Of a stretch of 64,000 nt of DNA, positions 6,971 to 30,466 are shown one piece after another. Every line of letters starts with the position of its first letter. The stretch's first letter is position 1. The position numbers were made by a program, and so were the translations under genes. The notes beneath the pieces are model-generated. The model was not told the origin of the DNA. It searched no databases and saw only the letters and a program-made list of their open reading frames with translations. Origin of the DNA: an uncultured Carboxylicivirga sp. (GTDB lineage: Bacteria > Bacteroidota > Bacteroidia > Bacteroidales > Marinilabiliaceae); the NCBI RefSeq assembly GCF_963668385.1, contig NZ_OY764327.1, positions 4,126,501 through 4,190,500 on the forward strand, given 5' to 3'.

Positions 6971-7037
6971 TGAACAAAAAGGGCGCTTGCTTGAATGTAT
7001 TGGATATAGCTATATCAATACTGCACCAATATCTTTG
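6971..7037 (+). promoter_or_regulatory. 21-bp direct-repeat operator and -7 box (gene at 7068)
   Basis: Half-sites TGAACAAAAAGGGCG (6971) and TGAATGTATTGGATA (6992) start 21 bp apart. The -7 box TATCTTTG (7030-7037) begins 38 nt after the second start. One of ten such promoters in the window; an AraC-type activator is inferred. Confidence 0.6.
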
Positions 7038-7067
7038 TGAGCTTATAATATAAATGGAAGATCAATA

Positions 7068-7787
7068 ATGAAAGCAGTCGTATTATTTCTGTTTGTAATA
7101 ATAATTTCCTTTGATGTTAGCTCCCAGATAAAGCTTACACGGGTCCATTCTAATATGGAGGCTTATGAGTTTAATGGAGGAGAAAAAGCATTGCATTGGG
7201 TAACCAACGGGCGAATAGCTTTAAGTTCTCGCGATGCAATAAACCTTGAAGTGATTGGGGCTTATTATACACGAGACGGAATTACAGATTGGACTCCTGG
7301 CGATTTCAGTATTACCTATTCGCGCAGCTATGCTTCATCAAAAGTTGGTTCAAGTGGCTGGCAAGGATGGTCGCCTATTGTAAAATTGGTTATGCCAACA
7401 GGTGATCCGACAAATGCAGCTATCTTTGGTCACTGGATTCTGGAACCGGCAGTGCAATATAAGTGGTTGTTAAAAGATCAACGTTTTTATATCAGCAACA
7501 AATGGCGTTATAACTTTCCGCTAGCTAATACAGGAGAGTGGCCCGAGCCTCCCATTTTACTTCGCTTCGAACCTAAGTTTGGATTTACTTCAGATAAGTG
7601 GTCGGCAGCTTTCAGTTTAGATAATCGTGCTGTTTTTAATCAGGATGCATTTGTAATATATGCACGAGTAGATGCAGGATATAAATTAGGTAGTAGGAGT
7701 GGATTAAATGCCTTTTATACCAACCGTGTGAGACATCAGGTTTTATTTAAAGCCTATGGTGGAATTGGTTTTTACTACAATTTTTAA
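7068..7787 (+). CDS. Outer-membrane beta-barrel protein
   Basis: A 239-residue exported protein: signal peptide to about residue 20 (cleavage after DVSSQ), then alternating-residue strands rich in Trp, Tyr and Gly, ending GGIGFYYNF with a terminal aromatic as in outer-membrane barrels. Length and strand pattern suggest an 8- to 12-strand barrel. No named family is recognised. It has its own promoter with the 21-bp AraC-type repeat, so it appears coordinated with the hydrolase cluster to its right, although no AraC gene lies beside it. It could be a small substrate channel. Confidence 0.6.
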   Translation: MKAVVLFLFVIIISFDVSSQIKLTRVHSNMEAYEFNGGEKALHWVTNGRIALSSRDAINLEVIGAYYTRDGITDWTPGDFSITYSRSYASSKVGSSGWQGWSPIVKLVMPTGDPTNAAIFGHWILEPAVQYKWLLKDQRFYISNKWRYNFPLANTGEWPEPPILLRFEPKFGFTSDKWSAAFSLDNRAVFNQDAFVIYARVDAGYKLGSRSGLNAFYTNRVRHQVLFKAYGGIGFYYNF

Positions 7788-7878
7788 AGTTTCTGGTCTT
7801 CATTCCTAATGAATACTTTAACAGGGTTACGATTAGTTAATATTTCTGCTGGATTTTAGAGTGCTACATATTTCGGTT

Positions 7879-7944
7879 TGACAGTTTTGGGATACCTGAT
7901 GACATTTTTGGAGTAAAAGATCATAGTGGAATCATGGATATTTG
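7879..7944 (+). promoter_or_regulatory. 21-bp direct-repeat operator and -7 box (Omp85-like gene 1)
   Basis: Half-sites TGACAGTTTTGGGAT (7879) and TGACATTTTTGGAGT (7900), exactly 21 bp apart. -7-like box GATATTTG at 7937, 37 nt after the second start. One of the two clearest copies in the window. Confidence 0.7.
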
Positions 7945-7991
7945 TATCAGAATAATTTTTGAAAAACAAACAATTAATAAATAAATCAATC

Positions 7992-9278
7992 ATGAAGACG
8001 ATACGTTTAACTTTAGCAGCAGCCTTAATGAGTATGGCTGTAACAGTAGGAGCGCAGTCGCCTCCAATTCAGAACAACCAGGAAGTAACCCCTGAAATTG
8101 AAAAGGAAAGAGCAGAAGCAGAAAAAGCAGAAGCCAATGCTAAAACTGATATCAAAGTTGGAAAACTGTATCTAACGGCACTTCCTGCATTAGCATCTAA
8201 TCCGGCATATGGTTTTATTTATGGAGCAGCTGCATCAGGTAGTATATTTTTAGGTGATCCGTCAACTACCAATATGTCTAATTTGATGGCAATAGCCACA
8301 TACACAACAAAAAATCAGTTAATGATTGCTCTACGTGGTAACTTATACACCAACGAAAATAAATGGATGTTACAGAGTGATTATAGATTTTTTGATTCTT
8401 CGCAACCCACTTTTGGCTTAGGAACAGGAGCCGATGGAAATACCTTAATCCCTGGAGTATCACCTTTGGGCGAAGATGAACTATATGAAGGAGAAGGTAT
8501 GGAGTTTAATTTTATACGGGCCCACCAAACAGCACTTAGGCAAATAAAACCCTCGTTGTATTTCGGTGGAGGTATTCATTTTGATCGTTTTTCGGATATT
8601 AATGATAACATATTGGATAAAGAAAATGGTATTTATTCTAATCATTATACTTATAGTATGAAGCATGGTTATGATCCCACTGGTTATAATTTGGTGGGTG
8701 TTTCGGCAAGTGCTTTATATGATACCCGTGATAATATGGCTAATCCATATTCAGGACGTTTTGCTAACATTTCTTATAAGTACAATGCCGACTTTTTAGG
8801 TAGTGATCAAAGCTCATCTACTCTTTGGATGGAATATCGTGATTATTTTAGTGTAAGTAAGAATGTACCCCGAAATGTACTTGCTGTTTGGACCTATGCT
8901 AACATTACAACACACGGACATCTACCTTATATGTTAATGCCTGCAACTGCCTGGGATCAGATGGGAAGATCAGGTCGTGGTTATGCTCAGGGACGCTGGA
9001 GAGGTGATGATATGTTTTATGCTGAGGCTGAATACAGGTTCCGTTTACCTCTTTTGGCTAAAAACCCTGATTTATTTGGTGGTGTAGTATTTGCCGATGC
9101 TACTTCGGCCTCTGCTCGCGATGCCAATGTAAACTTATTTGACAACTGGGCTTTTGCAGCTGGTGCTGGTTTGCGTATTCAAATCCAAAAAGCAACGCGT
9201 ACTAATCTTGGATTCGATTATGGTGTAGCTAATGATGGTACTGGTGCCTTTTATATAAACCTTACCGAGTATTTTTAA
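7992..9278 (+). CDS. BamA/TamA (Omp85)-like outer-membrane barrel, paralog 1
   Basis: A 428-residue protein. ATG 7992 is chosen because MKTIRLTLAAALMSMAVTVGAQ forms a signal peptide that aligns with the paralog at 17581; the frame is open further left from TTG 7959. There are no POTRA repeats; after a short charged linker, residues 50-428 form a bacterial surface-antigen barrel with an Omp85-like GRGYAQGRWRGDD segment (compare the VRGF loop) and a last strand ending in Phe. Single-domain proteins of this family are not the essential BamA. They may be secreted-lipase-type or substrate porins. It has its own 21-bp operator and ends at a terminator facing AraC gene 1. Confidence 0.8.
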   Translation: MKTIRLTLAAALMSMAVTVGAQSPPIQNNQEVTPEIEKERAEAEKAEANAKTDIKVGKLYLTALPALASNPAYGFIYGAAASGSIFLGDPSTTNMSNLMAIATYTTKNQLMIALRGNLYTNENKWMLQSDYRFFDSSQPTFGLGTGADGNTLIPGVSPLGEDELYEGEGMEFNFIRAHQTALRQIKPSLYFGGGIHFDRFSDINDNILDKENGIYSNHYTYSMKHGYDPTGYNLVGVSASALYDTRDNMANPYSGRFANISYKYNADFLGSDQSSSTLWMEYRDYFSVSKNVPRNVLAVWTYANITTHGHLPYMLMPATAWDQMGRSGRGYAQGRWRGDDMFYAEAEYRFRLPLLAKNPDLFGGVVFADATSASARDANVNLFDNWAFAAGAGLRIQIQKATRTNLGFDYGVANDGTGAFYINLTEYF

Positions 9279-9306
9279 AATAATGGTTAATTGTTAATGA
9301 TAAAAG

Positions 9307-9388: not shown

Positions 9389-10375
9389 TTATCCGGGAAT
9401 TACTTCTTTGGGATTAACACCTTTTACTTTTTTAAACATCAGCGAGAATTTCGATACGCTGTTATATCCCATATCAAAACCTACTTCCATTACTGTATAC
9501 TGGCCGGTTTTTAAGCGTCGATAGGCTTCATCCATTTTGGCATGGGTATAAAACTGGTAAACCGAGCAGTTGAACAAAGCTTTAAAATCGCGCTGAAGCT
9601 TTGATACACTTACAGCAAATTCATTGGCCAGATCTTCCAGATTGATTTTGGACTCAACGCTTTGGATTACTTTGTCTTTGATTATCATTAAGCGATTGTA
9701 ATCATCAACATGTAGTCCGTGTAATTCATCTTTATTCAATAATTTCTGAACCGATTGCATTAGAGTTGTAAATAATTCAAACGCTTTGGCATGCACCAAT
9801 AAAATTCTACCCGAATCGATATTATCGTAATGTAAGAGATCAAATAACAGACGATCCATCTCAGTTGTTAAATGCAGATGATAGCCTTTTGCTTCATCGT
9901 TTTCAAATAATTTATCAAAAATATCCACGGCTTCGGGCATTAATTCCTGAAGTCCCTTTCTATACAGTTTAAACGATACAGATTGATGCTGATGATTGGC
10001 ATGAAATTCTGATTTTAGTGGAAATAATCCATTATATATAAAAATACCTTGAGGAGAACCAGCCTCCATCAATTGTTGTTCATTATTGTAATCCTGCACC
10101 ACTTTCCCTTCTTTCACGATATTAATGTGATAATAATCGGGTATTTCGTCCGGAGTTCTGTCAATAACGATATTATAATCGTAGTTTCCCTGTACAACCA
10201 TAAACTCAAACTCAGGGAAATAAGAGTAGGCAGTAATTTTCCATTCGCTATTACCTCTTTTATATATGAGTCGTTTATCTTTTACTTCGGCTTTAAAACT
10301 TTCTTCAAAAGCTCTTAAATAGGTTTGAATATCACCTTCTTTTATCTTTATGTATAAAGGATCTTGTGTTTTCAT
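9389..10375 (-). CDS. AraC-family transcriptional regulator, paralog 1
   Basis: A 328-residue regulator (ATG at 10375; the frame continues to TTG 10384). The N-terminal 220 residues form an unnamed sensory domain shared with the two paralogs. The C-terminal 105 residues carry the double helix-turn-helix: first recognition region AVSVSKLQRDFKALF, second YNSVSKFSLMFKKVKGVNP. Cytoplasmic. It is transcribed away from the esterase gene at 10570 across a 194-bp region that holds the paired half-sites at 10476/10497, so I infer control of that promoter. No ligand can be named from the sequence. Confidence 0.9.
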   Translation of the reverse strand: MKTQDPLYIKIKEGDIQTYLRAFEESFKAEVKDKRLIYKRGNSEWKITAYSYFPEFEFMVVQGNYDYNIVIDRTPDEIPDYYHINIVKEGKVVQDYNNEQQLMEAGSPQGIFIYNGLFPLKSEFHANHQHQSVSFKLYRKGLQELMPEAVDIFDKLFENDEAKGYHLHLTTEMDRLLFDLLHYDNIDSGRILLVHAKAFELFTTLMQSVQKLLNKDELHGLHVDDYNRLMIIKDKVIQSVESKINLEDLANEFAVSVSKLQRDFKALFNCSVYQFYTHAKMDEAYRRLKTGQYTVMEVGFDMGYNSVSKFSLMFKKVKGVNPKEVIPG

Positions 10376-10475
10376 TGGTGTCAAGTTCTGGCTTTAAAGT
10401 TAATCGAAATCCTTTGTTAATAAAGAACAAAACGACTTTGTAGTAGTACTCATTTTGTTTTGATTACTTGTTAAA

Positions 10476-10541
10476 TGCTGCAAAAGGGTTGAGGGTTGAT
10501 AGAATTGGGACTGGACTGTTACAAATCTTAAATGATATTTG
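10476..10541 (+). promoter_or_regulatory. 21-bp direct-repeat operator and -7 box (esterase gene)
   Basis: Half-sites TGCTGCAAAAGGGTT (10476) and TGATAGAATTGGGAC (10497), 21 bp apart. Box GATATTTG at 10534, 37 nt after the second start. Lies in the divergent region between AraC gene 1 and the esterase. Confidence 0.6.
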
Positions 10542-10569
10542 TAACAGTAAATTTTAAAAGCTATTAGAT

Positions 10570-11580
10570 ATGAATATAAAGCAATTTTTTTTGATGACAA
10601 TTTTGGGTGTGTCGCTTTTAGTAGCGCCTAATGCCCAGGCACAGAAATCATTTTTTAATCCGGAAGTACCCGACATTGTTCAGTACGAAGTAACACCTGA
10701 TGTAAAGTACGGAGAAGGCAAAGTTAATGCAAACGGCAAAGTTGCCATGAAGGACCTAACCATGGATGTATATTATCCAAAAGCCGAGTCAGGCGAGCCA
10801 CGTCCTGCTATTATTTTAACTTATGGTGGAAGCTTTCACCGTGGTAATCCTCGTTCTCCTTATACGGGATTTGGAGGGCAAACAACATCAATGAGCCAGT
10901 ATGCCATGCGTTATGCTGCCGAAGGTTTTGTGGTATTTACCATTAATTATCGCGTAGCTCCCGATAATCCTATTGTAGACGAATACTCAGTATACACCGA
11001 AGACGATATTGACGTAAGTATATTTACAAATCCAGCTGCGGTAGCACAAACAAATGTTATTCGCCAGCAGATGGGATTGGAGCCTTTAACAGATGAAAAT
11101 GCCGAACCGGTTTTGAAAGCTACTGTTCTGGCAGCTGCCGAAGATTTACGCACAGCCATCCTCCATGTTAAAGCTGAAAACAAAACTTATAATATTAACC
11201 CTGATAAGATTGCATTGGGTGGATTCTCTGCCGGAGCAGTAACCTCTATTAATGTGGCATACGGAATGCAGGAAGATGTATCGGCTGTATTTATCAACTC
11301 AGGATTTGTGGCCGGACTGAAAGTGGCTAACAAAATTGCTGCTTCAGACAGCAATCCTCCTATTATGATGTTTATGAGTGATAATGATTACCCTGTAGTA
11401 TCTATGTTTACCCAACCACTTATTCAAATTTTTAAGGCGAATAACGTAGAATACCATTTTAACTGGGTTCCGGGTTTCGGTCATTTTTATCCGGGAGGAG
11501 CAGTAACTTTATCTGATGAGGGCGATAAAGCACCACTTATAGAAAGAACGCTGGGGTTTTTAAAAGAGAAGCTGCAATAA
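10570..11580 (+). CDS. Secreted alpha/beta-hydrolase (esterase-like)
   Basis: A 336-residue exported hydrolase with a signal peptide to about residue 25. It has the carboxylesterase layout: oxyanion segment YGGSFHRG near 85-92, nucleophile elbow GGFSAG with Ser220, acid in SDNDYP (Asp271 or Asp273) and His305 in GFGHFYPGG. The GGS/HGG-type oxyanion hole and the size point to the BD-FAE or hormone-sensitive-lipase-like branch, which cleaves carboxylic esters. The substrate is unknown. An operator for an AraC-type protein lies upstream. The Lumazine_bd_2-like gene follows after 63 nt, past a weak hairpin, so a two-gene operon is likely. Confidence 0.85.
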   Translation: MNIKQFFLMTILGVSLLVAPNAQAQKSFFNPEVPDIVQYEVTPDVKYGEGKVNANGKVAMKDLTMDVYYPKAESGEPRPAIILTYGGSFHRGNPRSPYTGFGGQTTSMSQYAMRYAAEGFVVFTINYRVAPDNPIVDEYSVYTEDDIDVSIFTNPAAVAQTNVIRQQMGLEPLTDENAEPVLKATVLAAAEDLRTAILHVKAENKTYNINPDKIALGGFSAGAVTSINVAYGMQEDVSAVFINSGFVAGLKVANKIAASDSNPPIMMFMSDNDYPVVSMFTQPLIQIFKANNVEYHFNWVPGFGHFYPGGAVTLSDEGDKAPLIERTLGFLKEKLQ

Positions 11581-11596
11581 GCATTTAAAAAAGCTA

Positions 11597-11621
11597 AGCC
11601 TGTACTACTTTAGTGCAGGCT
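11597..11621 (+). terminator. Weak intra-operon hairpin
   Basis: AGCCTGTACT (11597-11606) pairs with AGTGCAGGCT (11612-11621) with one wobble and no T-run. It may attenuate transcription between the esterase and the following gene rather than stop it. Confidence 0.4.
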
Positions 11622-11643
11622 GGCCTAATTAAAAATGAATGAC

Positions 11644-12099
11644 ATGAAGAAACTTGTTTTATCACTACTTATTGCAATATCAGGCTTATCGGCCTCTGCG
11701 CAATCGGATAAGAAAGAAGTTGAAGCCATAAAAAAGGTAATTGAAACAGCTTATCTCAATGGCGTTCAGAATATCGGTAATATGGACTTGATCGATGCCG
11801 GTTTTCATCCCGATTTTCGGATGCAGGTGTTGGAAAAGGACGGAAGCCTGTCAAACGTGTCCCTCGACGAATTTAAACAACGGGTAAAAAACAACATCGA
11901 TAAAGGTGTACTGCCTCGCCCCGAAGGAAAACAGGTAAGCGTTGAGTTTTTAAGTATCGATGTAAGTAAATATGCGGCCACCCTAAAAATGGATTACATC
12001 CTCGAAGGAAAGTCGGTTTACATCGATTATATGCAACTGTATAAATTCCCCGAAGGATGGAAAATCGTAAATAAGATTTACTACACCGTGGGTGATTAA
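11644..12099 (+). CDS. Secreted Lumazine_bd_2/NTF2-like protein, paralog 1
   Basis: A 151-residue protein. The ATG at 11644 gives a clean signal peptide (MKKLVLSLLIAISGLSASAQ); the in-frame ATG at 11635 adds only three residues. The mature part is a SnoaL/NTF2-type fold of the putative lumazine-binding family, with VIETAYLNGVQNIGNMD at the start and the closing strands LYKFPEGWKIVNKIYYTVGD. Members are small ligand-binding or orphan proteins. It is highly similar to the gene at 15853, including the HPDFRMQVLEKDG core, so one is a duplicate of the other. It follows the esterase gene. Confidence 0.78.
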   Translation: MKKLVLSLLIAISGLSASAQSDKKEVEAIKKVIETAYLNGVQNIGNMDLIDAGFHPDFRMQVLEKDGSLSNVSLDEFKQRVKNNIDKGVLPRPEGKQVSVEFLSIDVSKYAATLKMDYILEGKSVYIDYMQLYKFPEGWKIVNKIYYTVGD

Positions 12100-12162: not shown

Positions 12163-13140
12163 TTAACCCGGTATCACATCACTTGGATTAATTCCTTTAT
12201 TTTTTTTAAACATGATCGAGAATTTGGGAATGCTATTATACCCAAGATCGTAACCCACTTGCATTACGGTAAATTTACCTGTTTTCAGACGGCGATAGGC
12301 TTCATCCATTTTGGCTTGAGCAAAAAACTGATAGACTGAAATGTCAAATAGTGTTTTAAAGTCGCGCTGCAATTTTGATTTGCTGATAGCAAACTGTTTG
12401 GCAATTTCTTCAACATTGATTTTACCCTCAATATTATCTAACATTTCCTTTTTAATTAAAAGTAAACGATTATAGTCATCAATGTGTAAACCATGTAACT
12501 CATCTTTTTCTAATAATTGTTTAATGGAATTTAAAAGCATGGTAAATAATTCCAGCCCGCGAGATAATACCATAGTGTTTTTGCCAAAAATACCACTGTT
12601 AAATTCATAAAGTTCTGTCAAAAGCCTTTCCATCTCAATAGGTAATTGGGTGTGATAGGCAGTTGGCTCATCGTTTTCAAATAAGGTTTCAATAATCGGT
12701 ATTGCTTCGGGCATTATTTCGGCTATAGCTTGTTTTGATACTTTAAAAACAATAGCCTTGTAATCCTGATTGGCTGGTATGTTTGATTTTAAAGGGAAAC
12801 CACCATTGTATACAAATACACCTTTATTAGTGCCGGCTTCTGCAGTTTTCTCTTCGTTATCATAGTCCTGCATTATTTTACCCTCTTTAATCATATTAAA
12901 ATGATAATAGTCGGGTCTTTCATTAGCAATTCTATCAACTACAATATTATTATAGAAGTTGGTACTAAGTACCCCCAGTTCAAAATCAGCTGCAATAAGC
13001 TGCGACGAGAGATGAAAATAGTTAGAACCTTTTTGTATCTCAAACCTGTTTTTTATTCTCTTTTGCTCAAAAACCTCCTCAACTACCTTAAAGTAGTTGT
13101 TCATTCCGCCTTCAGTAACCTTTAAAATTGTTGTGTCCAA
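12163..13140 (-). CDS. AraC-family transcriptional regulator, paralog 2
   Basis: A 325-residue paralog of the regulators at 9389 and 16377, with the same unnamed N-terminal sensory region and C-terminal double helix-turn-helix (AISKSKLQRDFKTLF and YNSIPKFSIMFKKNKGINP). I keep the TTG start at 13140 because the residues it adds (TTILKVTEGG) align with the paralogs' starts and no in-frame ATG lies upstream; the first internal ATG is at residue 13. It diverges from the serine hydrolase gene at 13407, whose upstream region holds the G-rich half-sites at 13248/13269. Ligand unknown. Confidence 0.88.
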   Translation of the reverse strand: MDTTILKVTEGGMNNYFKVVEEVFEQKRIKNRFEIQKGSNYFHLSSQLIAADFELGVLSTNFYNNIVVDRIANERPDYYHFNMIKEGKIMQDYDNEEKTAEAGTNKGVFVYNGGFPLKSNIPANQDYKAIVFKVSKQAIAEIMPEAIPIIETLFENDEPTAYHTQLPIEMERLLTELYEFNSGIFGKNTMVLSRGLELFTMLLNSIKQLLEKDELHGLHIDDYNRLLLIKKEMLDNIEGKINVEEIAKQFAISKSKLQRDFKTLFDISVYQFFAQAKMDEAYRRLKTGKFTVMQVGYDLGYNSIPKFSIMFKKNKGINPSDVIPG

Positions 13141-13247: not shown

Positions 13248-13322
13248 TTATGCTTTTGGGTTCTTTGGGAATTGGGTTGGGACAAACGGAGATGATTGTA
13301 ACCTCCATAATCCTGATATTTG
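13248..13322 (+). promoter_or_regulatory. 21-bp direct-repeat operator and -7 box (serine hydrolase 1)
   Basis: TTATGCTTTTGGGTT (13248) and GAATTGGGTTGGGAC (13269) put their GGG blocks 21 bp apart. Box GATATTTG at 13315 is 46 nt after the second start, 9 nt further than in most copies. The left halves are weak, so this is the least regular of the set. Confidence 0.45.
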
Positions 13323-13406: not shown

Positions 13407-14717
13407 ATGAGAATTACATTATTACTTTCAGGATTGTTCCTGATATCGACAATGAGTTTTGCACAAAAGACAAGTAACAAGCTGGATGGAACCGATGGTT
13501 TGCAGCCAATTTCAGAATTTAAGGAAGATATTAATTCAACAGATGCTCAGAAGTATCGTACCGAATACAGGGCATTAAATTTTATTAAGGCCGATCAAAC
13601 GGGAGCTTACGGTTTTTTAAACCTACCCGAAGTTTCGCCAACAGCAACAGTCTACAGAAACGGACAGGTTTCTTTTTTAGAAGAAAATTTGAATGAAGAG
13701 CTTTGGAATACGGTTACCAAAACCAATGCCGGAACCATGCCTTTATCTGAATTAGTACAAAACGACAGTGCCCGTATGCAGGGGTTGTTAGTTATTCATG
13801 ATGGTAAAATTGCTCTTGAAAAATACATGGGCATGCGCGAAACAGATAAGCATGTGTGGTTTTCTGCATCCAAAACACTAACCGGAATATTGGTGCACAT
13901 TTTAGAAGAAGAAGGAAAGATTGATCTGGAGGAATCAGTTACGCATTATATACCTGAGTTTAACAGCGCTGATTGGCAAAAAGTGAAAGTAAAACACTTA
14001 TTGCATCACGTATCGGGTATGGATTATGTAGAAACAAACAAAAACTTTAAAACACCCGGACATCCATTGGCTATTGGTTTTGCTTATGCGATTGCTACGC
14101 GCCACGAGCCATCAGAAAAATCACTTTTTGATATTATGAAGGATGTAAAATTGTATAGAGAACCGGGTGAGGCTTTTGACTATTCAACCATGAATACACA
14201 GATTCTGGGTCTTATTATCGAAAAAGTAACCAATCAGAAGTTCGAAGATGTATTAAGTCAGCGCGTATGGGGAAAAAGTGGCATGGAGAGTGAAGGCCAT
14301 TATGCACTAACTCCATATGGTGAGATCTTAAATGGAGCTATCTTTTCATCTCGATTGAGAGATATGGGACGTTTCGGATTGTTATTTACCGATAGTTGGA
14401 ATAAGGTGTCTCAAGAGAAAGTTGTTTCGGATAGTTACTTCGAAAAAGTAAATGACAAAACATACAGCGACGCATATTTAAAAGGAGAGCAGGGTACTAA
14501 CAATGCAAAATACTTTGGCGAAGTTCCTTCGCATGCAAGCTACCAGTGGGATGCAGTGTTTAATGATGGAGATATGTATAAGGCCGGTCGTTATGGTCAG
14601 GGTATTTATGTATCGCCCGAAACGAATACTGTAATTGTATGGTTCTCTACCGTATACGAAAACCTTTTATACTTCCCCGGTTTTGCACGTCAAATAATTG
14701 ATCAAAATTATCGCTAA
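13407..14717 (+). CDS. Secreted serine hydrolase, class C beta-lactamase fold, paralog 1
   Basis: A 436-residue exported enzyme with signal peptide to residue 19-20. The penicillin-binding-protein/beta-lactamase motifs are SxxK at Ser153-Lys156 (FSASKT) and a Tyr motif at 259 (FDYST). The late HxG/KTG-type motif is not obvious. Such proteins are usually esterases or peptidases, not resistance enzymes; nothing here points to antibiotic hydrolysis. It is related to the enzyme at 20869. It is monocistronic, with a terminator at 14729, and lies divergently from AraC gene 2. Confidence 0.85.
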   Translation: MRITLLLSGLFLISTMSFAQKTSNKLDGTDGLQPISEFKEDINSTDAQKYRTEYRALNFIKADQTGAYGFLNLPEVSPTATVYRNGQVSFLEENLNEELWNTVTKTNAGTMPLSELVQNDSARMQGLLVIHDGKIALEKYMGMRETDKHVWFSASKTLTGILVHILEEEGKIDLEESVTHYIPEFNSADWQKVKVKHLLHHVSGMDYVETNKNFKTPGHPLAIGFAYAIATRHEPSEKSLFDIMKDVKLYREPGEAFDYSTMNTQILGLIIEKVTNQKFEDVLSQRVWGKSGMESEGHYALTPYGEILNGAIFSSRLRDMGRFGLLFTDSWNKVSQEKVVSDSYFEKVNDKTYSDAYLKGEQGTNNAKYFGEVPSHASYQWDAVFNDGDMYKAGRYGQGIYVSPETNTVIVWFSTVYENLLYFPGFARQIIDQNYR

Positions 14718-14883: not shown

Positions 14884-14949
14884 TGACCAAATGAGGTGAT
14901 AGCTTGATCTGTTTGGAGCCTTTGTTCATGAATAGATATATCATTTTTG
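14884..14949 (+). promoter_or_regulatory. 21-bp direct-repeat operator and -7 box (gene at 15034)
   Basis: TGACCAAATGAGGTG (14884) and TGATCTGTTTGGAGC (14905), 21 bp apart. Box CATTTTTG at 14942, 37 nt after the second start. Confidence 0.58.
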
Positions 14950-15033: not shown

Positions 15034-15831
15034 ATGAATTATCTAAAAGCATTAATACTTACAGGAATACTCGCGTTTGGTAATATCCTGAGTTTTGCTC
15101 AAACACAAGAAGAGATAGCGCAGAAATTACAAAATCCATTGTCAAACATTACTGCGCTACCTATTCAATATAACTTTGGATTAGGAACACCAGATTACGA
15201 GGGAACAACTTACACTACCTCATTTCAACCGGTAATGGCCTTTGACTATGGTAACTTTAGTATGGTACACCGAGCCGTTATTGGTACATCATACCTGCCA
15301 TCTACTACTTTAGGTAATGGAAGTACTTTTGGAACAACCGATTTAAACTACTCTTTCTATTTTGCTCCTAAAAAGAAGTTGGGGAATTTAGCCTTTGGTG
15401 TTGGGCCATCTATCGATATGCCTACTGCCAGTGATCCTTTGTTAGGTAGTGGTAAGTGGAATGCCGGAGCCAGTATTGTTGCTGTGTACCAAAAAAACAA
15501 GTGGACGCTGGATATGGTATTCCGTCAGACCAATTCCTTTGCCGGAGATGACGAAAGAGCTGATGTAAACCGTTTTGTCAGTCAAACCTTAGTAGCCTAC
15601 AGTTTAGGTAAAGGTTGGGTGGTAAATACTTTTCCAACTATTACTGCCAACTGGAATGCTGATAAGGGACAACAATGGACTGTTCCTGTAGGAGGAGGAG
15701 TAAGTAAGCTGGTATTTTTAGGTAAGCTTCCAACACAGTTTGGAGTTCAGTATTACAATAATGTGGTACGACCTGATTACGTTGGCAAAAGCGAACTAAG
15801 GTTTACAACAACATTTGTATTTTCTAAATAA
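15034..15831 (+). CDS. Outer-membrane beta-barrel ('neuromedin U'-type transporter-like)
   Basis: A 265-residue exported protein. ATG 15034 is chosen because it starts a signal peptide (MNYLKALILTGILAFGNILSFAQ); the frame is open to TTG 14983. The mature start, EIAQKLQNPLSNITALPIQYNFGLG, matches a widespread outer-membrane family often misnamed 'neuromedin U'. It is thought to be a porin-like barrel of unknown substrate. The last strand ends TTFVFSK. It sits 21 nt before the Lumazine_bd_2-like lipoprotein gene, so the two form an operon, behind a 21-bp operator. Confidence 0.75.
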   Translation: MNYLKALILTGILAFGNILSFAQTQEEIAQKLQNPLSNITALPIQYNFGLGTPDYEGTTYTTSFQPVMAFDYGNFSMVHRAVIGTSYLPSTTLGNGSTFGTTDLNYSFYFAPKKKLGNLAFGVGPSIDMPTASDPLLGSGKWNAGASIVAVYQKNKWTLDMVFRQTNSFAGDDERADVNRFVSQTLVAYSLGKGWVVNTFPTITANWNADKGQQWTVPVGGGVSKLVFLGKLPTQFGVQYYNNVVRPDYVGKSELRFTTTFVFSK

Positions 15832-15852
15832 CAGCATTTAAACATTATAGAC

Positions 15853-16308
15853 ATGAAAAATATAGCAATCGTATTATTTTCAGCGCTAATTGGATTAGCA
15901 TCTTGTAATGCCCCTGAAGACAAAGAAGTGGCAGCCATTAAACAGCTTGTTGAAACATCGTACCTCGAGGGAACTCAGAATATAGGCGATATGGATAAGA
16001 TTGATGCTGGTTTTCATCCCGATTTTCGTATGCAGGTGCTGGAGAAAGACGGAACCTTGAACAATGTAGACCGCGAAGGATGGAAGCAAATGGCACAAGA
16101 TAACATCGATAATGGAGTTCTTCCCCGTGCAGCTGATAAGCAGGTTAGTGTAAATTATTTAGATATTCAGGTTGAAAAATATGCAGCCACACTAAAAATG
16201 GAGTATATGCTGGAAGGTAAACCGGTATATATCGACTTTATGCAACTGTATAAATTTCCTGATGGATGGAAAATAGTAAATAAGATTTATTACACCGTGG
16301 GGGACTAG
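15853..16308 (+). CDS. Lumazine_bd_2/NTF2-like lipoprotein, paralog 2
   Basis: A 151-residue protein closely similar to the gene product at 11644, but with a lipobox (LIGLASC, Cys near residue 19) in place of plain signal-peptidase processing, so it is membrane-anchored. Shared segments include the HPDFRMQVLEKDG core and the final LYKFPDGWKIVNKIYYTVGD. The two paralogs thus differ mainly in anchoring: one soluble and exported, one lipid-attached. It is cotranscribed with the upstream barrel gene and ends at a terminator facing AraC gene 3. Confidence 0.78.
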   Translation: MKNIAIVLFSALIGLASCNAPEDKEVAAIKQLVETSYLEGTQNIGDMDKIDAGFHPDFRMQVLEKDGTLNNVDREGWKQMAQDNIDNGVLPRAADKQVSVNYLDIQVEKYAATLKMEYMLEGKPVYIDFMQLYKFPDGWKIVNKIYYTVGD

Positions 16309-17484: not shown

Positions 17485-17550
17485 TGCACATATTGGATAA
17501 GTGTATGGTTAAAATGGTCATGTCTTTCATTTGTTCAATCTCTAGTTTTG
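17485..17550 (+). promoter_or_regulatory. 21-bp direct-repeat operator and -7 box (Omp85-like gene 2)
   Basis: CATATTGGATAAG and AAAATGGTCATG place their GG pairs at 17495 and 17516, 21 bp apart. -7 box TAGTTTTG at 17543, 37 nt after the inferred second start (17506). The TGA parts of both halves are weak. Confidence 0.45.
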
Positions 17551-18870: not shown

Positions 18871-18966
18871 ACTAGAACAATACCTAAAAAATCAAGTTGT
18901 ATTACAACTCTTCAAGTTTGAAAATTATTCAATAGATAATAAGACAATTGTTTAAAGTATAATAGT

Positions 18967-20774: not shown

Positions 20775-20840
20775 AGCTTATTTTGGGTAAGCTTCTGCTT
20801 AATATGGGTATATCATAGTGTTACTTCTTTCTCATCTTTG
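20775..20840 (+). promoter_or_regulatory. 21-bp direct-repeat operator and -7 box (serine hydrolase 2)
   Basis: AGCTTATTTTGGGTA (20775) and TGCTTAATATGGGTA (20796), 21 bp apart. Box CATCTTTG at 20833, 37 nt after the second start. Confidence 0.62.
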
Positions 20841-20868: not shown

Positions 20869-22188
20869 ATGAAACGATTAAATATCATCAAAACATTATT
20901 TGCTGCGGCAATGATGATTGTAATATCATCAAACAGTATGGCACAAGAAAGAAAGGGGCCTGCACCCGTTCAAAAAGCGTTAGATGGATGGTCAGCAGAA
21001 GAAAACTTAAATTACATTCGTAACTTTAGTGTTGCAGAACTTACCTTAGGCGAGCCGGCTGCTTTATGGTTTCATGCTCATGCATCGCAAACCAATAAAA
21101 CTGCTATTCTGTTACGTCGTCAGCCCATTATGGAATATCAGCAAACATTACAGCCCGAGATTGGGGCCATTGAAGTAGAAACTGATTTGGGTACTTTATC
21201 GTTGGATGAATACCTGACACACCCCCAAAGTTTTGCTCAGGGTTTTGTTGTAATTCATAAAGGACAAATAGCTTATGAGTCTTATCCCGGAATGCACGAA
21301 CTAGATCCTCATTTTTGGGCCTCTACAACAAAAGTACTGGCTTCGTTGGCAGTAGATTTGCTAATTGAGGATGGGCTTATTGATGAAAATTTACCATTGG
21401 GTAATTATGTACCTGAGTTTAAGGGTTCGGCCTGGGAAGATGTAAAAGTTGTGGATGCTCTTGATATGTCGGCCGGTTTAGATGCATTGGATAATGCAAC
21501 TCAGTTTGCCGATCCTGCTTCGGTTACCTCGCGTATGTTCAGAGCCGAGTTAGGTGAAGCAACAGATGGCAAAGTAGAATATATGCTGGATGTTATGCTG
21601 GATGCTAAAAAGGTAGATGAGCCAGGGAAATACTATGCTTACTCATCGGCTGTTACTCAATCGCTGGTGTTTTTGGTTGAAGCAGTTAGTGGCCAAAGCT
21701 GGTCTGATTTCTTTAACCAGCGAGTATGGTCAAAAATGGGTGTTGAGGGTCCTTTACAAATGCACCTTTCACCCGATGGTGTTGCCATTGTTCATGGTCC
21801 GGCATCCTCAAACCTTAGAGATTTGGCTCGTGTTGGTACACTTTATACCCCAAGCTGGAGTACCATATCAACAGAGCGCATAGTTACGCCTGCAATTATT
21901 GACCGTATATCAAACTCACCTCGTACACAAGAATTTTATATGGATGGAAGTGCTGGTTCGGGTCAGCGGTTTATGGATCGTTTGGGCGATACTTCCATTC
22001 GAACAGCCGCACGTCAATGGGATGCCATTTTTGAAGACGGCGATTTCTTTAAATCAGGTTTAAATGCTCAGGGTATGTATGTATCACCCGATCGCGATTT
22101 GGTTATTGCCTTTTTCTCAACAGAGCCAACACATCGTATACAAAAGTACCTTCGCCCTATCGTTAAATCCGGATTGTTTGATAAGTAA
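20869..22188 (+). CDS. Secreted serine hydrolase, class C beta-lactamase fold, paralog 2
   Basis: A 439-residue exported enzyme with a signal peptide (cleavage near SNSMAQ, residue 26). SxxK at Ser152-Lys155 (ASTTK) and a Tyr motif in KYYAYSSAVTQ near 256 give the class C/EstB active site. It shares the C-terminal layout (QWDAIFEDGDFFKSG, QGMYVSP, IAFFST) with the product of 13407, so the two are paralogs of one branch. It is probably an esterase or peptidase; the substrate is unknown. It is monocistronic, with an AraC-type operator upstream and a 15-bp terminator stem downstream. Confidence 0.85.
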   Translation: MKRLNIIKTLFAAAMMIVISSNSMAQERKGPAPVQKALDGWSAEENLNYIRNFSVAELTLGEPAALWFHAHASQTNKTAILLRRQPIMEYQQTLQPEIGAIEVETDLGTLSLDEYLTHPQSFAQGFVVIHKGQIAYESYPGMHELDPHFWASTTKVLASLAVDLLIEDGLIDENLPLGNYVPEFKGSAWEDVKVVDALDMSAGLDALDNATQFADPASVTSRMFRAELGEATDGKVEYMLDVMLDAKKVDEPGKYYAYSSAVTQSLVFLVEAVSGQSWSDFFNQRVWSKMGVEGPLQMHLSPDGVAIVHGPASSNLRDLARVGTLYTPSWSTISTERIVTPAIIDRISNSPRTQEFYMDGSAGSGQRFMDRLGDTSIRTAARQWDAIFEDGDFFKSGLNAQGMYVSPDRDLVIAFFSTEPTHRIQKYLRPIVKSGLFDK

Positions 22189-22374: not shown

Positions 22375-23046
22375 TTACTTACTAATCTTATGTAGGTATT
22401 TGATGGCAACTAAATTATAAGGTTGAAGATAACCTTGTTTATTTACTTGCCGTTCCCACTTTGATAATTGCTTTCTTTTAAATTCCTCTACATGAGCAAT
22501 GTTCTTTGTTAGTCGAGCTCTTTTGTAATCTTCTTTTAACTTAGTAATAATAGATTCTCTATTTATTTGAGTGTAATACTCATTTAAATTAAGTGCACGA
22601 ATGTCAGCTTCGACATCGGCATCATCATGGGTTGATATAATTTTACCATTATCAAGAAACTTAATTAAAGTTTCAATATTGGTATTTAAAGGATTTAGTT
22701 TTTTAATTTCGTAATGATAATCTCCAACATCTTTACTTTTATCACAATGGGCATTTTGTTTGGGGTTACCTTCTCCTCCTTTACAAACACCTAACATATT
22801 TTTGTAATCGAGTTGTAAATCAGGATGATTTTTTCTGCATTTTATATGTTCTATTCCCATTTGAGGTAATCCTCCTTCAACAGCATGAATTCGACAAAGA
22901 CAGTAAGCACATAAACCTTTTTGTTCGAGTAATAGTTGTTGTTGAATTTCAGATTTGTCTAGTCCTTGGCCTTCATACTTTGTGCCTCCATCTCTTTTAA
23001 ATTGGGTAAGAGTAGGTGGTTCCGAACCTTTAGTAATGTGCTTCAT
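22375..23046 (-). CDS. ptuB: Septu system HNH endonuclease PtuB
   Basis: A 223-residue nuclease of the TIGR02646/PtuB type. Metal- and DNA-binding marks: CAYC at 46-49, GIEHIK with His67, KNHPDL with His74, the LDYKNMLGVCKG core with Cys88, and HCDKSK at 100-105, a zinc-supported HNH fold. It starts 3 nt after the stop of the ATPase gene, so the two are translationally linked. PtuA and PtuB are the known components of the Septu anti-phage system, in which the ATPase complex controls a DNA-cutting nuclease. No reverse transcriptase lies nearby, so this is a plain Septu pair and not a retron of the Ec78 type. Confidence 0.88.
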   Translation of the reverse strand: MKHITKGSEPPTLTQFKRDGGTKYEGQGLDKSEIQQQLLLEQKGLCAYCLCRIHAVEGGLPQMGIEHIKCRKNHPDLQLDYKNMLGVCKGGEGNPKQNAHCDKSKDVGDYHYEIKKLNPLNTNIETLIKFLDNGKIISTHDDADVEADIRALNLNEYYTQINRESIITKLKEDYKRARLTKNIAHVEEFKRKQLSKWERQVNKQGYLQPYNLVAIKYLHKISK

Positions 23047-23049
23047 ATG

Positions 23050-24417
23050 TTAATCTTCTTCAAATTCCATTAACGCAAATTCATAATCTCTGGTTGCTTT
23101 TACGGTATCAGGATCGTGTTCACCAAATTGAGCCATAAAAAGATCATTCAATATATTCTTTGCTTCAGTTAAGCCTTCTTTACTTTCAATTAGTTGATAG
23201 AATTTATCAATTTCTTGTTGAATACTATCTTCCCTTATTTTTACACCTTGTTCTGAGTACATTATATATTCAGGTTTTCTTCCTTTAGTGTAAATGTTGT
23301 CAGAGAATAATTTAAAGTTATCAATACGGTGTACGCATTTATTGGGAACACGAGATAAAACTAATGGAGAATGAGTTGTAACTAAAAATTGAATTCCAGG
23401 AAAGGTTGATTGAAGTGCTCTAATTATGTTAATTTGCCATTTAGGATGCAGATGAATGTCTATCTCATCTATTAATACAATGCCTGTAGAATTGGTATAC
23501 GAAAATTGATTCGAATCATGTGAAGCAATTACACAGCGTCGTGCTATATCTCCAACAAGATGAATAAGAATTCGTTCACCATCGGATAGATGTTTTACTG
23601 GTATTTTAACTCCATTTTTTTCAATTAGCATAACCAAACCCTCGTCATGTTCAATAAAAGGAGATTTCCCTACAGAAATATTTCCAAAAGAATCAACATC
23701 AAGATAGTTTAGAAAGCTAATCAATGCTTGTCTTACGCATTCAACAGTTCCTTTTTTGAATTCTAAATTACCTTTCTCTAGGCGAGTACTATTTTCATCA
23801 CTTTGTTCAACAATAAACCAGTTTTCAAAATCTACAAATTTAGTTTTTGCTTCAAGTGTATTGGCATAGGTTTGTAGTAATTTATTTTGTGTGATGTGTT
23901 TAATTCTAATATTGTCGTCAAAAGACCTATCTGAGCTGTAAAAAGCAAAGATGGGAACGGAACCATCAGGATCGAAGGAGTTTGCTTGTATGTCATCTGT
24001 TATTCTTTGTATATCTCCTGCGACATGATGAAATTCCGGATGGTCTCTTTGAAATTGCTTATAATAGTTGAGATTGTATGTTTGAGGAGACATTATGTCA
24101 TTAACAGAGGTATCTAAACCATTTTCAAGTTCTAAATTTATCGTTGTTTCGGATGCTCCAATTTTTAAGTCTCTATAGCTTAACTTTTCTTTTTCTGCAT
24201 CAGGAAAGAATTTAGACGTAATATTTTTTAATGCCCAACGTATAGCATTTAGTATAGATGTTTTTCCTGAGCCATTATCGCCAATAAAGACAGCTAGCAT
24301 CTCTTTTGAATAATACTCACCATATTCACTGGCTTTATTATTCTTTCTATAACTTAAAGAAAAATCCAACTCTTCAAATCCTCTGTAATTCTCAATATGT
24401 ATTTTTTTAATCTTCAT
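23050..24417 (-). CDS. ptuA: Septu system AAA/SMC-like ATPase PtuA
   Basis: A 455-residue ATPase of the RecF/SMC/ABC group. It has the N-terminal KIHIENYRGFEELDF strand, Walker A GDNGSGKTS at 46-54, an LSDGER signature near 277, Walker B GIVLIDEID near 312-320 and TTHSP near 347. The middle region (about 100-240) is the family-variable insertion. It lies directly upstream of ptuB with a 3-nt gap. In known Septu systems PtuA forms an oligomer that holds PtuB and senses infection. The pair's low GC and its place between unrelated modules fit an acquired defence cassette, though no mobility gene is visible. Confidence 0.88.
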   Translation of the reverse strand: MKIKKIHIENYRGFEELDFSLSYRKNNKASEYGEYYSKEMLAVFIGDNGSGKTSILNAIRWALKNITSKFFPDAEKEKLSYRDLKIGASETTINLELENGLDTSVNDIMSPQTYNLNYYKQFQRDHPEFHHVAGDIQRITDDIQANSFDPDGSVPIFAFYSSDRSFDDNIRIKHITQNKLLQTYANTLEAKTKFVDFENWFIVEQSDENSTRLEKGNLEFKKGTVECVRQALISFLNYLDVDSFGNISVGKSPFIEHDEGLVMLIEKNGVKIPVKHLSDGERILIHLVGDIARRCVIASHDSNQFSYTNSTGIVLIDEIDIHLHPKWQINIIRALQSTFPGIQFLVTTHSPLVLSRVPNKCVHRIDNFKLFSDNIYTKGRKPEYIMYSEQGVKIREDSIQQEIDKFYQLIESKEGLTEAKNILNDLFMAQFGEHDPDTVKATRDYEFALMEFEED

Positions 24418-27181: not shown

Positions 27182-27247
27182 TGACTACATCGGGTATGCG
27201 TTTGAAGAAAATGGTAAAGTGCCGGAACCGGTACAAAACTAATTTTG
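27182..27247 (+). promoter_or_regulatory. 21-bp direct-repeat operator and -7 box (gene at 27309)
   Basis: TGACTACATCGGGTA (27182) and TGAAGAAAATGGTAA (27203), 21 bp apart. -7 box TAATTTTG at 27240, 37 nt after the second start. Confidence 0.62.
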
Positions 27248-27308: not shown

Positions 27309-28142
27309 ATGAAAAAAATAGTAACTCTATTACTGGGCTTTGCAGCGTTTATAAATGTTGTAAATGCCCAAAACGAAAATAAAGTAGTAGCTGATAGTTT
27401 ATATACCAAAGAAGCCTCGAAAGCCGATTGGGATATGAGTTTGGCTCTTAAATCGCAAAATATTTTTCGTGGTTTGTTACCTTCTGCTTCTCCGGCTATG
27501 GCTACACAGGCCGGTGTTATATGGAAAGACTGGATTTTTGCCATGTACGGTGGTGTTGGTTTAAACGGTGTTTATCAGGAAACCGACTTTATTGTGGTGT
27601 ATCGCCAGCCGCGTTGGAATGCTCACCTCGAGTATTATTACAACTTTACACAAGGTATTACCGATATACCAACGCCAAGCGGATTGTTCGATTTTAACAA
27701 ACAAACTACACGCGGTTTGCTCGATTTGATTGTAAATGTGCAGTTAGATAAAAAAGGGCATTGGAACCTGAAATCGTCCACCTTGGTTTTCGGTCGCGAT
27801 AATGTGATTGAAACCATTGGTCAGGACGATAACGGAAATGCCATCACTCGTCGTGGTGATCAGCGTTATACACAATACTTGGCTTTGGAATATGGCTGGT
27901 ACTGGGGCGACAATAAAGTAAAAGCCCATGTGGGTGGATCTTTCAGTTTAAGCGATCCAACAGCAGGGCATTTTTATGGTGCTAAACCCGGGTTTAATGA
28001 CATAGGTTTTGCTTTTACCCGAAAAGTAAAGGTGAACGAGAATACCAAATTGCCGGTAAAAGTAGCTGCTATATTGAATCCATTGGCACAAAAAAGCTAC
28101 TTGCAGTTTTCAGTGGATCTGATACAGATTAGTAAATTGTAG
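27309..28142 (+). CDS. Outer-membrane barrel protein (TorF-like porin candidate)
   Basis: A 277-residue exported protein with a signal peptide to about residue 20 (NVVNAQ). After a 20-residue linker it shows the opening strand DMSLALKSQNIFRGLL, resembling the 'S-x-x-WRG' first strand of putative porins of the TorF type. It continues with alternating aromatic strands and ends YLQFSVDLIQISKL. The barrel call is reasonably firm and the family name tentative. Its promoter carries the 21-bp operator, linking it to the same inferred regulon as the hydrolase cluster 7 kb to the left. Confidence 0.65.
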   Translation: MKKIVTLLLGFAAFINVVNAQNENKVVADSLYTKEASKADWDMSLALKSQNIFRGLLPSASPAMATQAGVIWKDWIFAMYGGVGLNGVYQETDFIVVYRQPRWNAHLEYYYNFTQGITDIPTPSGLFDFNKQTTRGLLDLIVNVQLDKKGHWNLKSSTLVFGRDNVIETIGQDDNGNAITRRGDQRYTQYLALEYGWYWGDNKVKAHVGGSFSLSDPTAGHFYGAKPGFNDIGFAFTRKVKVNENTKLPVKVAAILNPLAQKSYLQFSVDLIQISKL

Positions 28143-28508: not shown

Positions 28509-28574
28509 TGACCTGATTGGGTTTATGAATGATTATTTTGGATAAGTACCTCCTTGGGGATCTGTCTTCCTTTG
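28509..28574 (+). promoter_or_regulatory. 21-bp direct-repeat operator and -7 box (DUF2490 gene)
   Basis: TGACCTGATTGGGTT (28509) and TGATTATTTTGGATA (28530), 21 bp apart. Box TTCCTTTG at 28567, 37 nt after the second start. This is the only recognisable signal in the 28143-28610 gap. Confidence 0.65.
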
Positions 28575-28610
28575 TTAGCTCAATTTTTATCTCAACTAAT
28601 CATCATTTCA

Positions 28611-29420
28611 ATGAAATATAAAATTGCAATTATCTTGCTGTTTGCAAGTACCATTAGTAAGGCACAGTTTACTGATGCTGGTAGCAGTACTACCAGTCTG
28701 GAAGAAACCGGTATATGGAACGGATTATACCTGAAAGCCCGTTTAAGTGATAAAATCGGGTATTATGCCGAACATCACTACAGGGTGCGTAATGCAGCCG
28801 ATAATGTAACTTCATTTATTGGCAGGGACAGACAAATTTATAATCGTGCCGGTATCAATTTCTTTTTTAGTAAAAATTTTGAAGCTGTTATTGGTCCTGC
28901 CTTAATCGTTAATTATACCCCCGATCCGGGAAATGATCAGTATGAAAAAATAACATTAGAACCTCGTATATGGCATCAGTGGTTATTTAAAACAACCGAT
29001 TTGGGAAGGTTTAATCTTTATCATCAGTTCAGGTTTGAGCACCGCTGGAAAAGAAACAATGATGTAGGAGCCGAATACGATTATACTAACCGATACCGAT
29101 ATAAGTTTTTTGCATATATCCCCATTAATTCACCAACTATTAAAGAAAAGACCTTGTACTTTTCGCCCAGTGCCGAAATTTTTATGCACTCCGGAAAATC
29201 TATTGTTGCCAATCCAATGGAGGATTTCAGAACCTATAATGGGTTTGGTTACGTGCTAAATAATAACATTACTTTTTTTGCCGGTCATATGTGGACTTTA
29301 GGACAGAAAAGTGATGGAGCCTCTTATAAAACAACCCATATATTACGTTTTAATGTATTAATCGGTCTCGACTTCCGCAAGTTAGAGAAGCGTTTACCTG
29401 GCATTAATTTAGGATACTAA
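28611..29420 (+). CDS. DUF2490-like outer-membrane protein
   Basis: A 269-residue exported protein. ATG 28611 starts a proper signal peptide (MKYKIAIILLFASTISKAQ); the frame is open to TTG 28554, which would put the -7 box inside the gene. The mature part has the DUF2490 layout: TGIWNGLYLKARLSDKIGYYAEHHYRVR-like first strands, an Arg-rich turn, FRFEHRW in the middle and a GLDFRKLEKR end. DUF2490 members are small outer-membrane barrels of unknown role. It probably forms an operon with the MORN gene, which begins 64 nt later. Confidence 0.75.
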   Translation: MKYKIAIILLFASTISKAQFTDAGSSTTSLEETGIWNGLYLKARLSDKIGYYAEHHYRVRNAADNVTSFIGRDRQIYNRAGINFFFSKNFEAVIGPALIVNYTPDPGNDQYEKITLEPRIWHQWLFKTTDLGRFNLYHQFRFEHRWKRNNDVGAEYDYTNRYRYKFFAYIPINSPTIKEKTLYFSPSAEIFMHSGKSIVANPMEDFRTYNGFGYVLNNNITFFAGHMWTLGQKSDGASYKTTHILRFNVLIGLDFRKLEKRLPGINLGY

Positions 29421-29484
29421 TTACAAACCTCAGTATTGTCAATAAGCTATTTAAGAAATTTGATAACCGAATGAACGAATAGAT

Positions 29485-30345
29485 ATGAATAAAAAATATA
29501 TAATATCGGTATTGCTATTAGCCATGCTTATTTTGGTTGCCATGCTTGCTAAAAGCAAAAATGAACTGAACGAAAGGAACACATTTATAAATGATATAGC
29601 AGCAGAGCTTGATTATTATAAGATAAAATCAAAAGCCGATTCATTATTAAACCACGATGAGCTGGAATTGGCCTTGGAGCAGTTTGCTATCCTTGATCAG
29701 ATCAATAATAATGAAGCTTATACCCATCATGCTAATTCTATTTTTGAAGAGCGAAATAAAACTCATCAGAATAATAGTTTCCTATCAAACAAAATTCGCG
29801 AAAGAGGAAAGGTTATCCGCCAATTGTATAAAAACAAAGATGAGCTAAACGATAGCCTGGAAAAGGTAAAAACTACCCTTTATGTATTACAAACCGAGTT
29901 TGATTCTGTACTGATATGTAATAGTAACATTGAGCTGCGTGTAAATGAATTAAACGATAGTATCAGCTCTATTCATATTACCGACACCTTAACTATTTAT
30001 TGTGGCCAGGGAGTAAGTATTAAATATTTGGGAGAAGTAAAGAGTGGCAAGGCACATGGTTTTGGATATGCCATTTTTGATAATAAAGGATTTTATGAGG
30101 GCAACTGGAAAAACAGTTTGCGCAATGGGCAAGGAAAGTACTCGTGGCAAAATGGTGATGTTTATGAGGGCGAATACAGTAATGACTTAAGGAATGGTTT
30201 TGGAATCTATCAATTTAAAAGTGGAGAGCAATACATTGGCGATTGGCGTAACGATTTGCGCCACGGAAAAGGTGTACTGTTGGATAAAGATACAAAAGTA
30301 CTATTTGATGGGAAATGGGAAAACGATAAACCAGACAGACACTAA
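29485..30345 (+). CDS. Membrane-anchored MORN-repeat protein
   Basis: A 286-residue protein. Residues 5-24 form a transmembrane anchor, 25-165 a long charged coiled coil, and about 180-280 four MORN-type repeats (GKAHGFGYAIF..., EGNWKNSLRNGQGKYSW, EGEYSNDLRNGFGIYQF, IGDWRNDLRHGKGVLL). MORN repeats make an extended beta-sheet rod that binds proteins or lipids. With an N-terminal anchor the rod would lie in the periplasm. It lies 64 nt after the DUF2490 gene, in an apparent operon. A role in linking envelope layers is conceivable but unsupported. Confidence 0.8.
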   Translation: MNKKYIISVLLLAMLILVAMLAKSKNELNERNTFINDIAAELDYYKIKSKADSLLNHDELELALEQFAILDQINNNEAYTHHANSIFEERNKTHQNNSFLSNKIRERGKVIRQLYKNKDELNDSLEKVKTTLYVLQTEFDSVLICNSNIELRVNELNDSISSIHITDTLTIYCGQGVSIKYLGEVKSGKAHGFGYAIFDNKGFYEGNWKNSLRNGQGKYSWQNGDVYEGEYSNDLRNGFGIYQFKSGEQYIGDWRNDLRHGKGVLLDKDTKVLFDGKWENDKPDRH

Positions 30346-30400
30346 AGTACGGTTAGTCTGAAATTAAAGTGCAATTGCTTTTAATTCAATATAATCATCT

Positions 30401-30466
30401 TGACTGTTTTGGATAAACGCTTGACCATTTTGGGTAAGAAATAACGGGCTCAGAGCCTCATCTTTG
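30401..30466 (+). promoter_or_regulatory. 21-bp direct-repeat operator and -7 box (small lipoprotein gene)
   Basis: TGACTGTTTTGGATA (30401) and TGACCATTTTGGGTA (30422): the best-matched pair in the window, 21 bp apart with 12 of 15 bases identical. Box CATCTTTG at 30459, 37 nt after the second start. Confidence 0.75.

Follow-up and report, generated by a model that had tools for sequence, protein, structure and literature searches.

A stretch of 64,000 nucleotides (the window), comprising bases 4,126,501-4,190,500 of the single-contig 6.27-Mb genome of an uncultured Carboxylicivirga sp., carries ten promoters within 24 kb that share a 21-bp direct repeat of the motif TGA-N7-GG. In these promoters the second 15-bp half-site is followed, after 22 nt, by a -7 box of the form TAnnTTTG. 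Judged from sequence, the repeats are very probably read by class II activators of the AraC family, the cluster's own three AraC proteins being the predicted readers. This reading had been put forward in a first-pass annotation of the window and proved the best one on the basis of repeats in the divergent promoters of 26 of 34 AraC loci, a geometry like that of XylS and CphR, and the co-occurrence of sites with the AraC subfamily, to which one genome (G012) is an exception.

The ten pairs of half-sites and their boxes could all be read at the positions first listed, the register of the fourth pair aside. All operators are on the plus strand: operator 1 at 6971-7006 (half-sites starting at 6971 and 6992, box 7030-7037), operator 2 at 7879-7914 (7879 and 7900, box 7937-7944), operator 3 at 10476-10511 (10476 and 10497, box 10534-10541), operator 4 at 13257-13292 (13257 and 13278 as corrected, box 13315-13322), operator 5 at 14884-14919 (14884 and 14905, box 14942-14949), operator 6 at 17485-17520 (17485 and 17506, box 17543-17550), operator 7 at 20775-20810 (20775 and 20796, box 20833-20840), operator 8 at 27182-27217 (27182 and 27203, box 27240-27247), operator 9 at 28509-28544 (28509 and 28530, box 28567-28574) and operator 10 at 30401-30436 (30401 and 30422, box 30459-30466). 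By column counts, both halves have TGA, a T-rich run and TTGG, and there is an extra G at position 19. The box had been placed 37, 38 or 46 nt from the start of the second half-site. In the fourth promoter, the best pair starts at 13257/13278 instead of 13248/13269 and the box is then 37 nt away, so the 46-nt exception was a register error; the distance of 37 nt (TTTG at +41) now holds in nine of the ten promoters, and that of 38 nt (TTTG at +42) stands for operator 1. The corrected register is weak when taken alone, with p=0.116 in its own promoter and 0.020 in the near-identical copy of Carboxylicivirga linearis. A further box at 1957 (TATATTTG), which had been described as lacking the repeat, indeed has no operator near it when the matrix is scored together with the box. 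Beyond the usual box, a TAATGTAA stretch immediately 3' of the -7 TTTG (alignment columns 70-78) is conserved in many promoters of the window and of alignment A2.

The AraC genes are on the minus strand, at 9389-10384 (paralogue 1), 12163-13140 (paralogue 2, 50% identical to paralogue 1) and 16377-17363 (paralogue 3, 43% identical to paralogue 1). As the first-pass annotation had observed, they are divergent from three of the sites, with operators 10476, 13257 and 17485 facing paralogues 1, 2 and 3, respectively. Their products (325-331 aa) have a C-terminal domain with two helix-turn-helix motifs (HTH_18), and gave HTH_AraC-type and weak ExsA_N matches only; the sensor kinase and receiver domains of a hybrid two-component system (HTCS) were not found in them. 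Paralogue 1 is 99% identical to a protein of C. linearis FB218, which makes the source of the window a close relative of that species. All three subfamily proteins of the genome are encoded within the cluster, and the next match spans the DNA-binding part only (E 1e-10).

To the side of such AraC genes, the repeat is a recurrent feature. Among 34 AraC loci, which include three near-copies from C. linearis, 26 have a divergent promoter with a repeat at p<=0.01 (Markov shuffles); one of the 26, L065, is without a box in place. Seven related-locus records (L027, L029, L030, L034-L037) were left out of the 34 as their contigs, judging by length, had already been sampled, and three of the 33 AraC matches of the family survey had no locus and fall outside the set. 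The distance from the second half-site to TTTG is 40-42 nt in 27 of the 28 loci with a repeat at p<=0.02, and exactly 41 nt in 24, although the box had played no part in the choice of these loci. A count made without any matrix in 31 divergent regions gave the same period: GG...GG pairs peak at lag 21 with 36 pairs (mean 8.2, s.d. 5.5 over lags 5-59), with 21 pairs at lag 20 and 22 at lag 22. TG...TG pairs also have their maximum at lag 21 (46 pairs), with lower contrast (mean 26.6, s.d. 8.4; 45 pairs at lag 8).

Within the window, a weight matrix built from the ten pairs, as the first-pass annotation had proposed, placed nine of the ten sites at ranks 1-15 among positions of both strands when each site was left out in turn; as many as nine of the higher places may be other training sites. 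The fourth pair in its original register (13248) ranked 86th. With the full own-site matrix, a non-site at 55187 scored above 14884, and 36788 and 34058 scored above 13248. When the box was added to the matrix, a score of 11 was reached in the 64 kb by the ten sites only, all of which are included in that matrix. An operator-only matrix derived from 18 promoters of other species gave ranks 1-6 among 127,910 window positions to sites of the ten, and nine of the ten were in its top 14. In 60 shuffled 64-kb windows scored with this matrix, the comparison with shuffled sequence came out clearly for the five best sites (0.00-0.12 matches per window) and less clearly for the rest: the scores of the next four were met 1.05-2.67 times per window and that of 20775, 143 times. 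The repeat alone exceeds chance for five sites by the other-species matrix. Since scores like those of the lower five are common in shuffled sequence, what supports these sites is the own-site matrix together with the constant distance to the box.

For the genome scan we employed R1, a sequence-only model from a gap-free alignment of 18 of the 34 promoters divergent from AraC relatives. Excluded from its training were nine rows (those of the own genome and of C. linearis together with L065), five with p>0.02 and two with a box offset other than 41; all genome-wide ranks given here come from this model of other species' promoters. An IUPAC pattern with up to three mismatches had also been tried on the own genome and found 26 matches, including seven of the ten sites and the remote site described below, against 10 for the reversed pattern; it was too loose at three mismatches, so R1 was used. 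Over the 6.27 Mb, R1 listed 30 matches at E<=10, the best 150 of 4,037 first-look candidates having been scored, and a site outside the list is not thereby proven absent. Its top five were 7879, 30401, a remote eleventh site at 3,954,059-3,954,129, 14884 and 28509 (E 3e-6 to 0.026); 6971 ranked 8th and 17485 13th. The remote site precedes a small lipoprotein gene on the minus strand (1245-1439 in locus L001; G000:C1:3953809-3954000), the product of which is 50% identical to that of the gene at 30515-30697. These two related genes for lipoprotein-like products of 60-64 aa are about 203 kb apart, have operators at R1 ranks 3 and 2, and gave no Pfam family match.

The operator and the AraC subfamily also tend to occur in the same genomes. 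The subfamily was found at E<=1e-40 in 13 of 60 genomes of the family and in 2 of 295 genomes drawn from the order (at most seven candidates scored per genome), the own genome being counted in both. The operator pattern averaged 5.3 matches per genome where the subfamily is present (13 genomes) and 1.4 where it is absent (47 genomes; Mann-Whitney p=1e-5, a value that ignores relatedness and genome size); the reversed control pattern had 0.8 and 0.3, respectively. This control underestimates the background, because the pattern still has 65 matches against 16 in the 47 genomes without the subfamily. R1 found a match at E<=1e-3 in all 12 other subfamily genomes, ten of which had given training rows and two of which (G053 and G022) had not, and in none of 23 genomes chosen by the analyst from the 47 without the subfamily (best E 0.0024).

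These results bear on the idea that another AraC-type regulator, for example an HTCS, reads the sites and that the adjacent AraC genes are bystanders. HTCS regulators do have AraC-type domains and, in the available part of PMC3878776, predicted repeats with a 21-bp period, and G012 has operator-like sites and no subfamily member. The divergent association in 26 of 34 loci and the absence of an R1 match at E<=1e-3 from the 23 genomes speak against bystander AraC genes, as does a covariation between protein and site, and we consider the idea very unlikely. Among 29 AraC loci for which a site was called, all four proteins whose first recognition helix begins with proline face GTC at positions 3-5 of the proximal half-site, and all 25 with another residue there face other bases. 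On a protein tree from which the helix columns had been excluded, both traits require two changes, which coincide; the residue and the bases were picked after the alignment had been viewed, and two independent pairs cannot reach significance. Two of the four proline proteins are also without an arginine of the same helix. The 29 loci are the 34 minus L067, a fragment, and four without a called site; the site of L069 came from a later matrix scan, and L039 (p=0.116) and L072 (p=0.206) were kept as the box fits.

Conservation of the half-sites in orthologous promoters, on which the first-pass annotation had staked its reading, was observed against C. linearis and in the divergent AraC promoters of relatives. 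The remote site differs from its C. linearis counterpart at 14 of 66 positions and at none of the 30 half-site-core and box positions (Fisher p=5e-5, the 30 positions having been named after the consensus was seen). The nine cluster sites that align to C. linearis show nine changes, none in the GG at positions 11-12 and none in TTTG. In the first operon, BLAST homology with C. linearis begins at 7064, just 5' of the gene, and the operator is found in the unlike upstream sequence of both. In the clusters of relatives, a matrix that includes training rows gives the following numbers of sites scoring at least 11: 13 for C. linearis (36 kb), 10 for G050 (30 kb), 5 for G054 (18 kb) and 6 for contig C12 of G046 (18 kb).

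The cluster contains paralogous AraC, Omp85-type and beta-lactamase-family genes, and one might suppose that the shared sequence is a promoter copied along by tandem duplication and not a selected protein site. Against this, among the operator-to-box columns 40-61 only 42 and 57 exceed 0.35 bits, like half-sites recur between unlike flanks, in other genera as well, and the changes in the remote site avoid the consensus positions. Copying by tandem duplication was rejected on the unlike flanks of the promoters, and we regard it as extremely unlikely.

In the mechanism that we propose, each promoter would offer an AraC/XylS-family protein two tandem 15-bp half-sites, 21 bp apart, each with a box A (TGA) and a box B (GG). 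The regulator, probably a dimer, would occupy both on one face of the DNA. The TAnnTTTG box is placed at -12 to -5 in Flavobacterium psychrophilum in the available part of PMC9723704; if that position applies here, the proximal half-site would lie at -49 to -35 and the distal one at -70 to -56. The proximal half-site of a promoter without a consistent -33 element would then be where the regulator recruits RNA polymerase. The three cluster AraC proteins, the only subfamily members found in the genome, would act as the readers. Since the half-site positions would then match those of CphR, and the paired 15-bp repeats those of XylS, class II activation is the likeliest mode of action. The sequences establish the motif, its spacing and box distance, its conservation and its co-occurrence with the AraC subfamily; we infer binding, activation, dimerisation, a role of the N-terminal domain as small-molecule sensor, and the assignment of paralogues to promoters.

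AraC-family proteins are also able to repress, and the same proteins could bind the repeats as repressors. The near edge of the operator is 52-125 nt from the AraC start codon (19 loci), from where it could block the AraC promoter too. At the target promoters, the operator is upstream of the -7 box and not over it, in the class II position and at a fixed distance in 27 of 28 loci, and repression is in our opinion quite improbable. In a check for autoregulation, the best same-strand repeat across the 34 loci reached 6.9, and in 4 of 19 loci the AraC strand has a TAnnTTTG box no more than 100 nt from the start.

Several observations weigh against the proposed activation by the cluster AraC proteins. 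The 30 genome-wide matches listed for R1 do not include operators 10476, 13257, 20775 and 27182, and 20775 is weak, at rank 159 of 127,910 by the operator-only matrix from other species. Of the nine changes relative to C. linearis, operator 20775 has two in TGA positions, and half-site position 4 is changed once at 13257 and once at 17485. A -33 TTTG is described for Bacteroides fragilis in the available part of PMC7366714; among the 15-nt stretches of the -33 region of the ten sites, TTTG is present in one (14884) and ATTG in one more (13257). Eight of the 34 AraC loci are without a divergent pair at p<=0.01, and weaker R1 matches (E<=0.05) occur in 13 of the 23 genomes without the subfamily. 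G012, without a subfamily member, has two R1 matches with E 3e-6 and 3e-5, one before a gene for a 150-aa lipoprotein-like protein and the other before no clear target (L132 2561, L133 3137). The G012 sites may be similar sites read by another AraC-type regulator, or the subfamily gene may be missing from the assembly.

The genes behind the ten boxes, all on the plus strand, probably encode exported enzymes, outer-membrane proteins and a small lipoprotein, export and lipoprotein status having been judged by eye from the N-termini. Operator 1 precedes a gene for a 239-aa protein without a Pfam family (7068-7787), operator 2 one for an Omp85-superfamily protein of 428 aa from ATG (7992-9278), operator 4 one for a beta-lactamase-family (PF00144) protein (13407-14717), operator 7 another of that family (20869-22188), operator 8 one for a 277-aa protein without a Pfam family (27309-28142), operator 9 one for a DUF2490 protein of 269 aa from ATG (28611-29420) and operator 10 that for the 60-aa small lipoprotein related to the remote target. 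Three targets are putative single operons: an alpha/beta hydrolase (BD-FAE) followed by a PF12893 protein behind operator 3 (10570-12099), a 265-aa protein without a Pfam family followed by a PF12893 protein behind operator 5 (15034-16308), and an Omp85-superfamily protein followed by an amidohydrolase (PF07969) behind operator 6 (17581-20679). The first genes thus comprise two of the Omp85 superfamily, two of the beta-lactamase family, an alpha/beta hydrolase, a DUF2490 protein, three without a Pfam family and the 60-aa lipoprotein. SusC and SusD families were not found among 20 window proteins scanned.

In 11 of the 34 loci, the divergent partner of the AraC gene encodes a lipoprotein-like product of 52-63 aa, and in one more a product of 128 aa; three small lipoproteins that were scanned had no Pfam family match. 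A survey of the small lipoproteins took 25 of 27 matches, of which 18 genes were located, some in loci overlapping with the 34, and 11 of the 18 have an upstream repeat at p<=0.02. Among further partners in relatives are a choloylglycine-family amide hydrolase, an alkyl-sulfatase-type metallo-hydrolase and an M20 peptidase-family protein. L128 (G046:C12) and L129 (G046:C4) contain groups of small lipoprotein-like genes with operator copies of their own, and in L129 GTC replaces TGA at positions 3-5 in seven of eight half-sites. Inside the cluster, 22375-24417 encodes a pair resembling the Septu anti-phage system, with matches to the PtuB1 (E 7e-52) and PtuA1 (E 1.5e-92) models, and the segment 22189-24551 is without a counterpart in the C. 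linearis cluster. Elsewhere in the window, two minus-strand reading frames (31233-32864 and 52452-54083) have the same length of 543 aa, with very large frames close by (2545 aa at 33342 and 2212 aa at 55536).

A broader picture can be drawn tentatively, and we consider it possible rather than probable. In Carboxylicivirga and its family, an AraC subfamily that frequently has a lipoprotein of 52-63 aa as its partner may have spread by duplication into clusters with its operator at many operons. It would there respond to an amphiphilic molecule and control outer-membrane proteins as well as exported hydrolases (choloylglycine-family amide hydrolase, alkyl-sulfatase-type, M20, beta-lactamase-family and amidohydrolase), with the paralogues avoiding cross-talk through a box A switch from TGA to GTC tied to the proline of recognition helix 1. 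Fatty-acid sensing, suggested by structural matches to ToxT and Rns, was not supported for the N-terminal domain. For one-piece AraC proteins on the TAnnTTTG promoters of Bacteroidota, the analysis yields an operator that can be tested and that has support from several species, and it predicts the targets of three regulators. It suggests that class II geometry is the same on TAnnTTTG promoters as on sigma-70 promoters, and indicates an unnamed family of small lipoproteins. The paralogues form a natural set in which base choice by AraC recognition helices can be studied.

A literature search, outside which most subscription journals lay, found no paper on this regulon; as far as their available parts go, PMC12125979 concerns Vibrio XylR-type sites and PMC11253607 HTCS inhibition, and neither describes the regulon. 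The best Foldseek E-values for the AraC structure model were to AraC proteins of the ToxT, Rns and CsvR type. In site architecture, the closest likeness is to XylS at Pm and to CphR. The available text of PMC5481539 gives XylS two 15-bp direct repeats with boxes A and B, and that of PMC6205950 gives CphR sites at -69/-55 and -49/-35 with TGCA-N6-GGNTA. Here there are likewise two 15-bp direct repeats, of TGA-N7-GG, which would lie at about -70/-56 and -49/-35 by the F. psychrophilum box position. The present operators differ from those in that they belong to TAnnTTTG promoters, the Bacteroidota type, have TGA as box A in place of TGCA, and are found at ten operons of one cluster and at one remote gene. 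For Bacteroides HTCS regulators, operators were predicted in 2013, with 16-bp repeats and a 5-bp spacer for HTCS_Man and 12 plus 9 bp for HTCS_Rgu-1 (PMC3878776, available part). The AraC-type DNA-binding domain, the 21-bp period and the phylum are shared with these, whereas HTCS regulators are hybrid two-component proteins of polysaccharide loci and the proteins here are AraC proteins of 325-331 aa. Given the XylS/CphR geometry and the earlier predictions of 21-bp HTCS repeats, we consider this a new regulon under a familiar mechanism of control.

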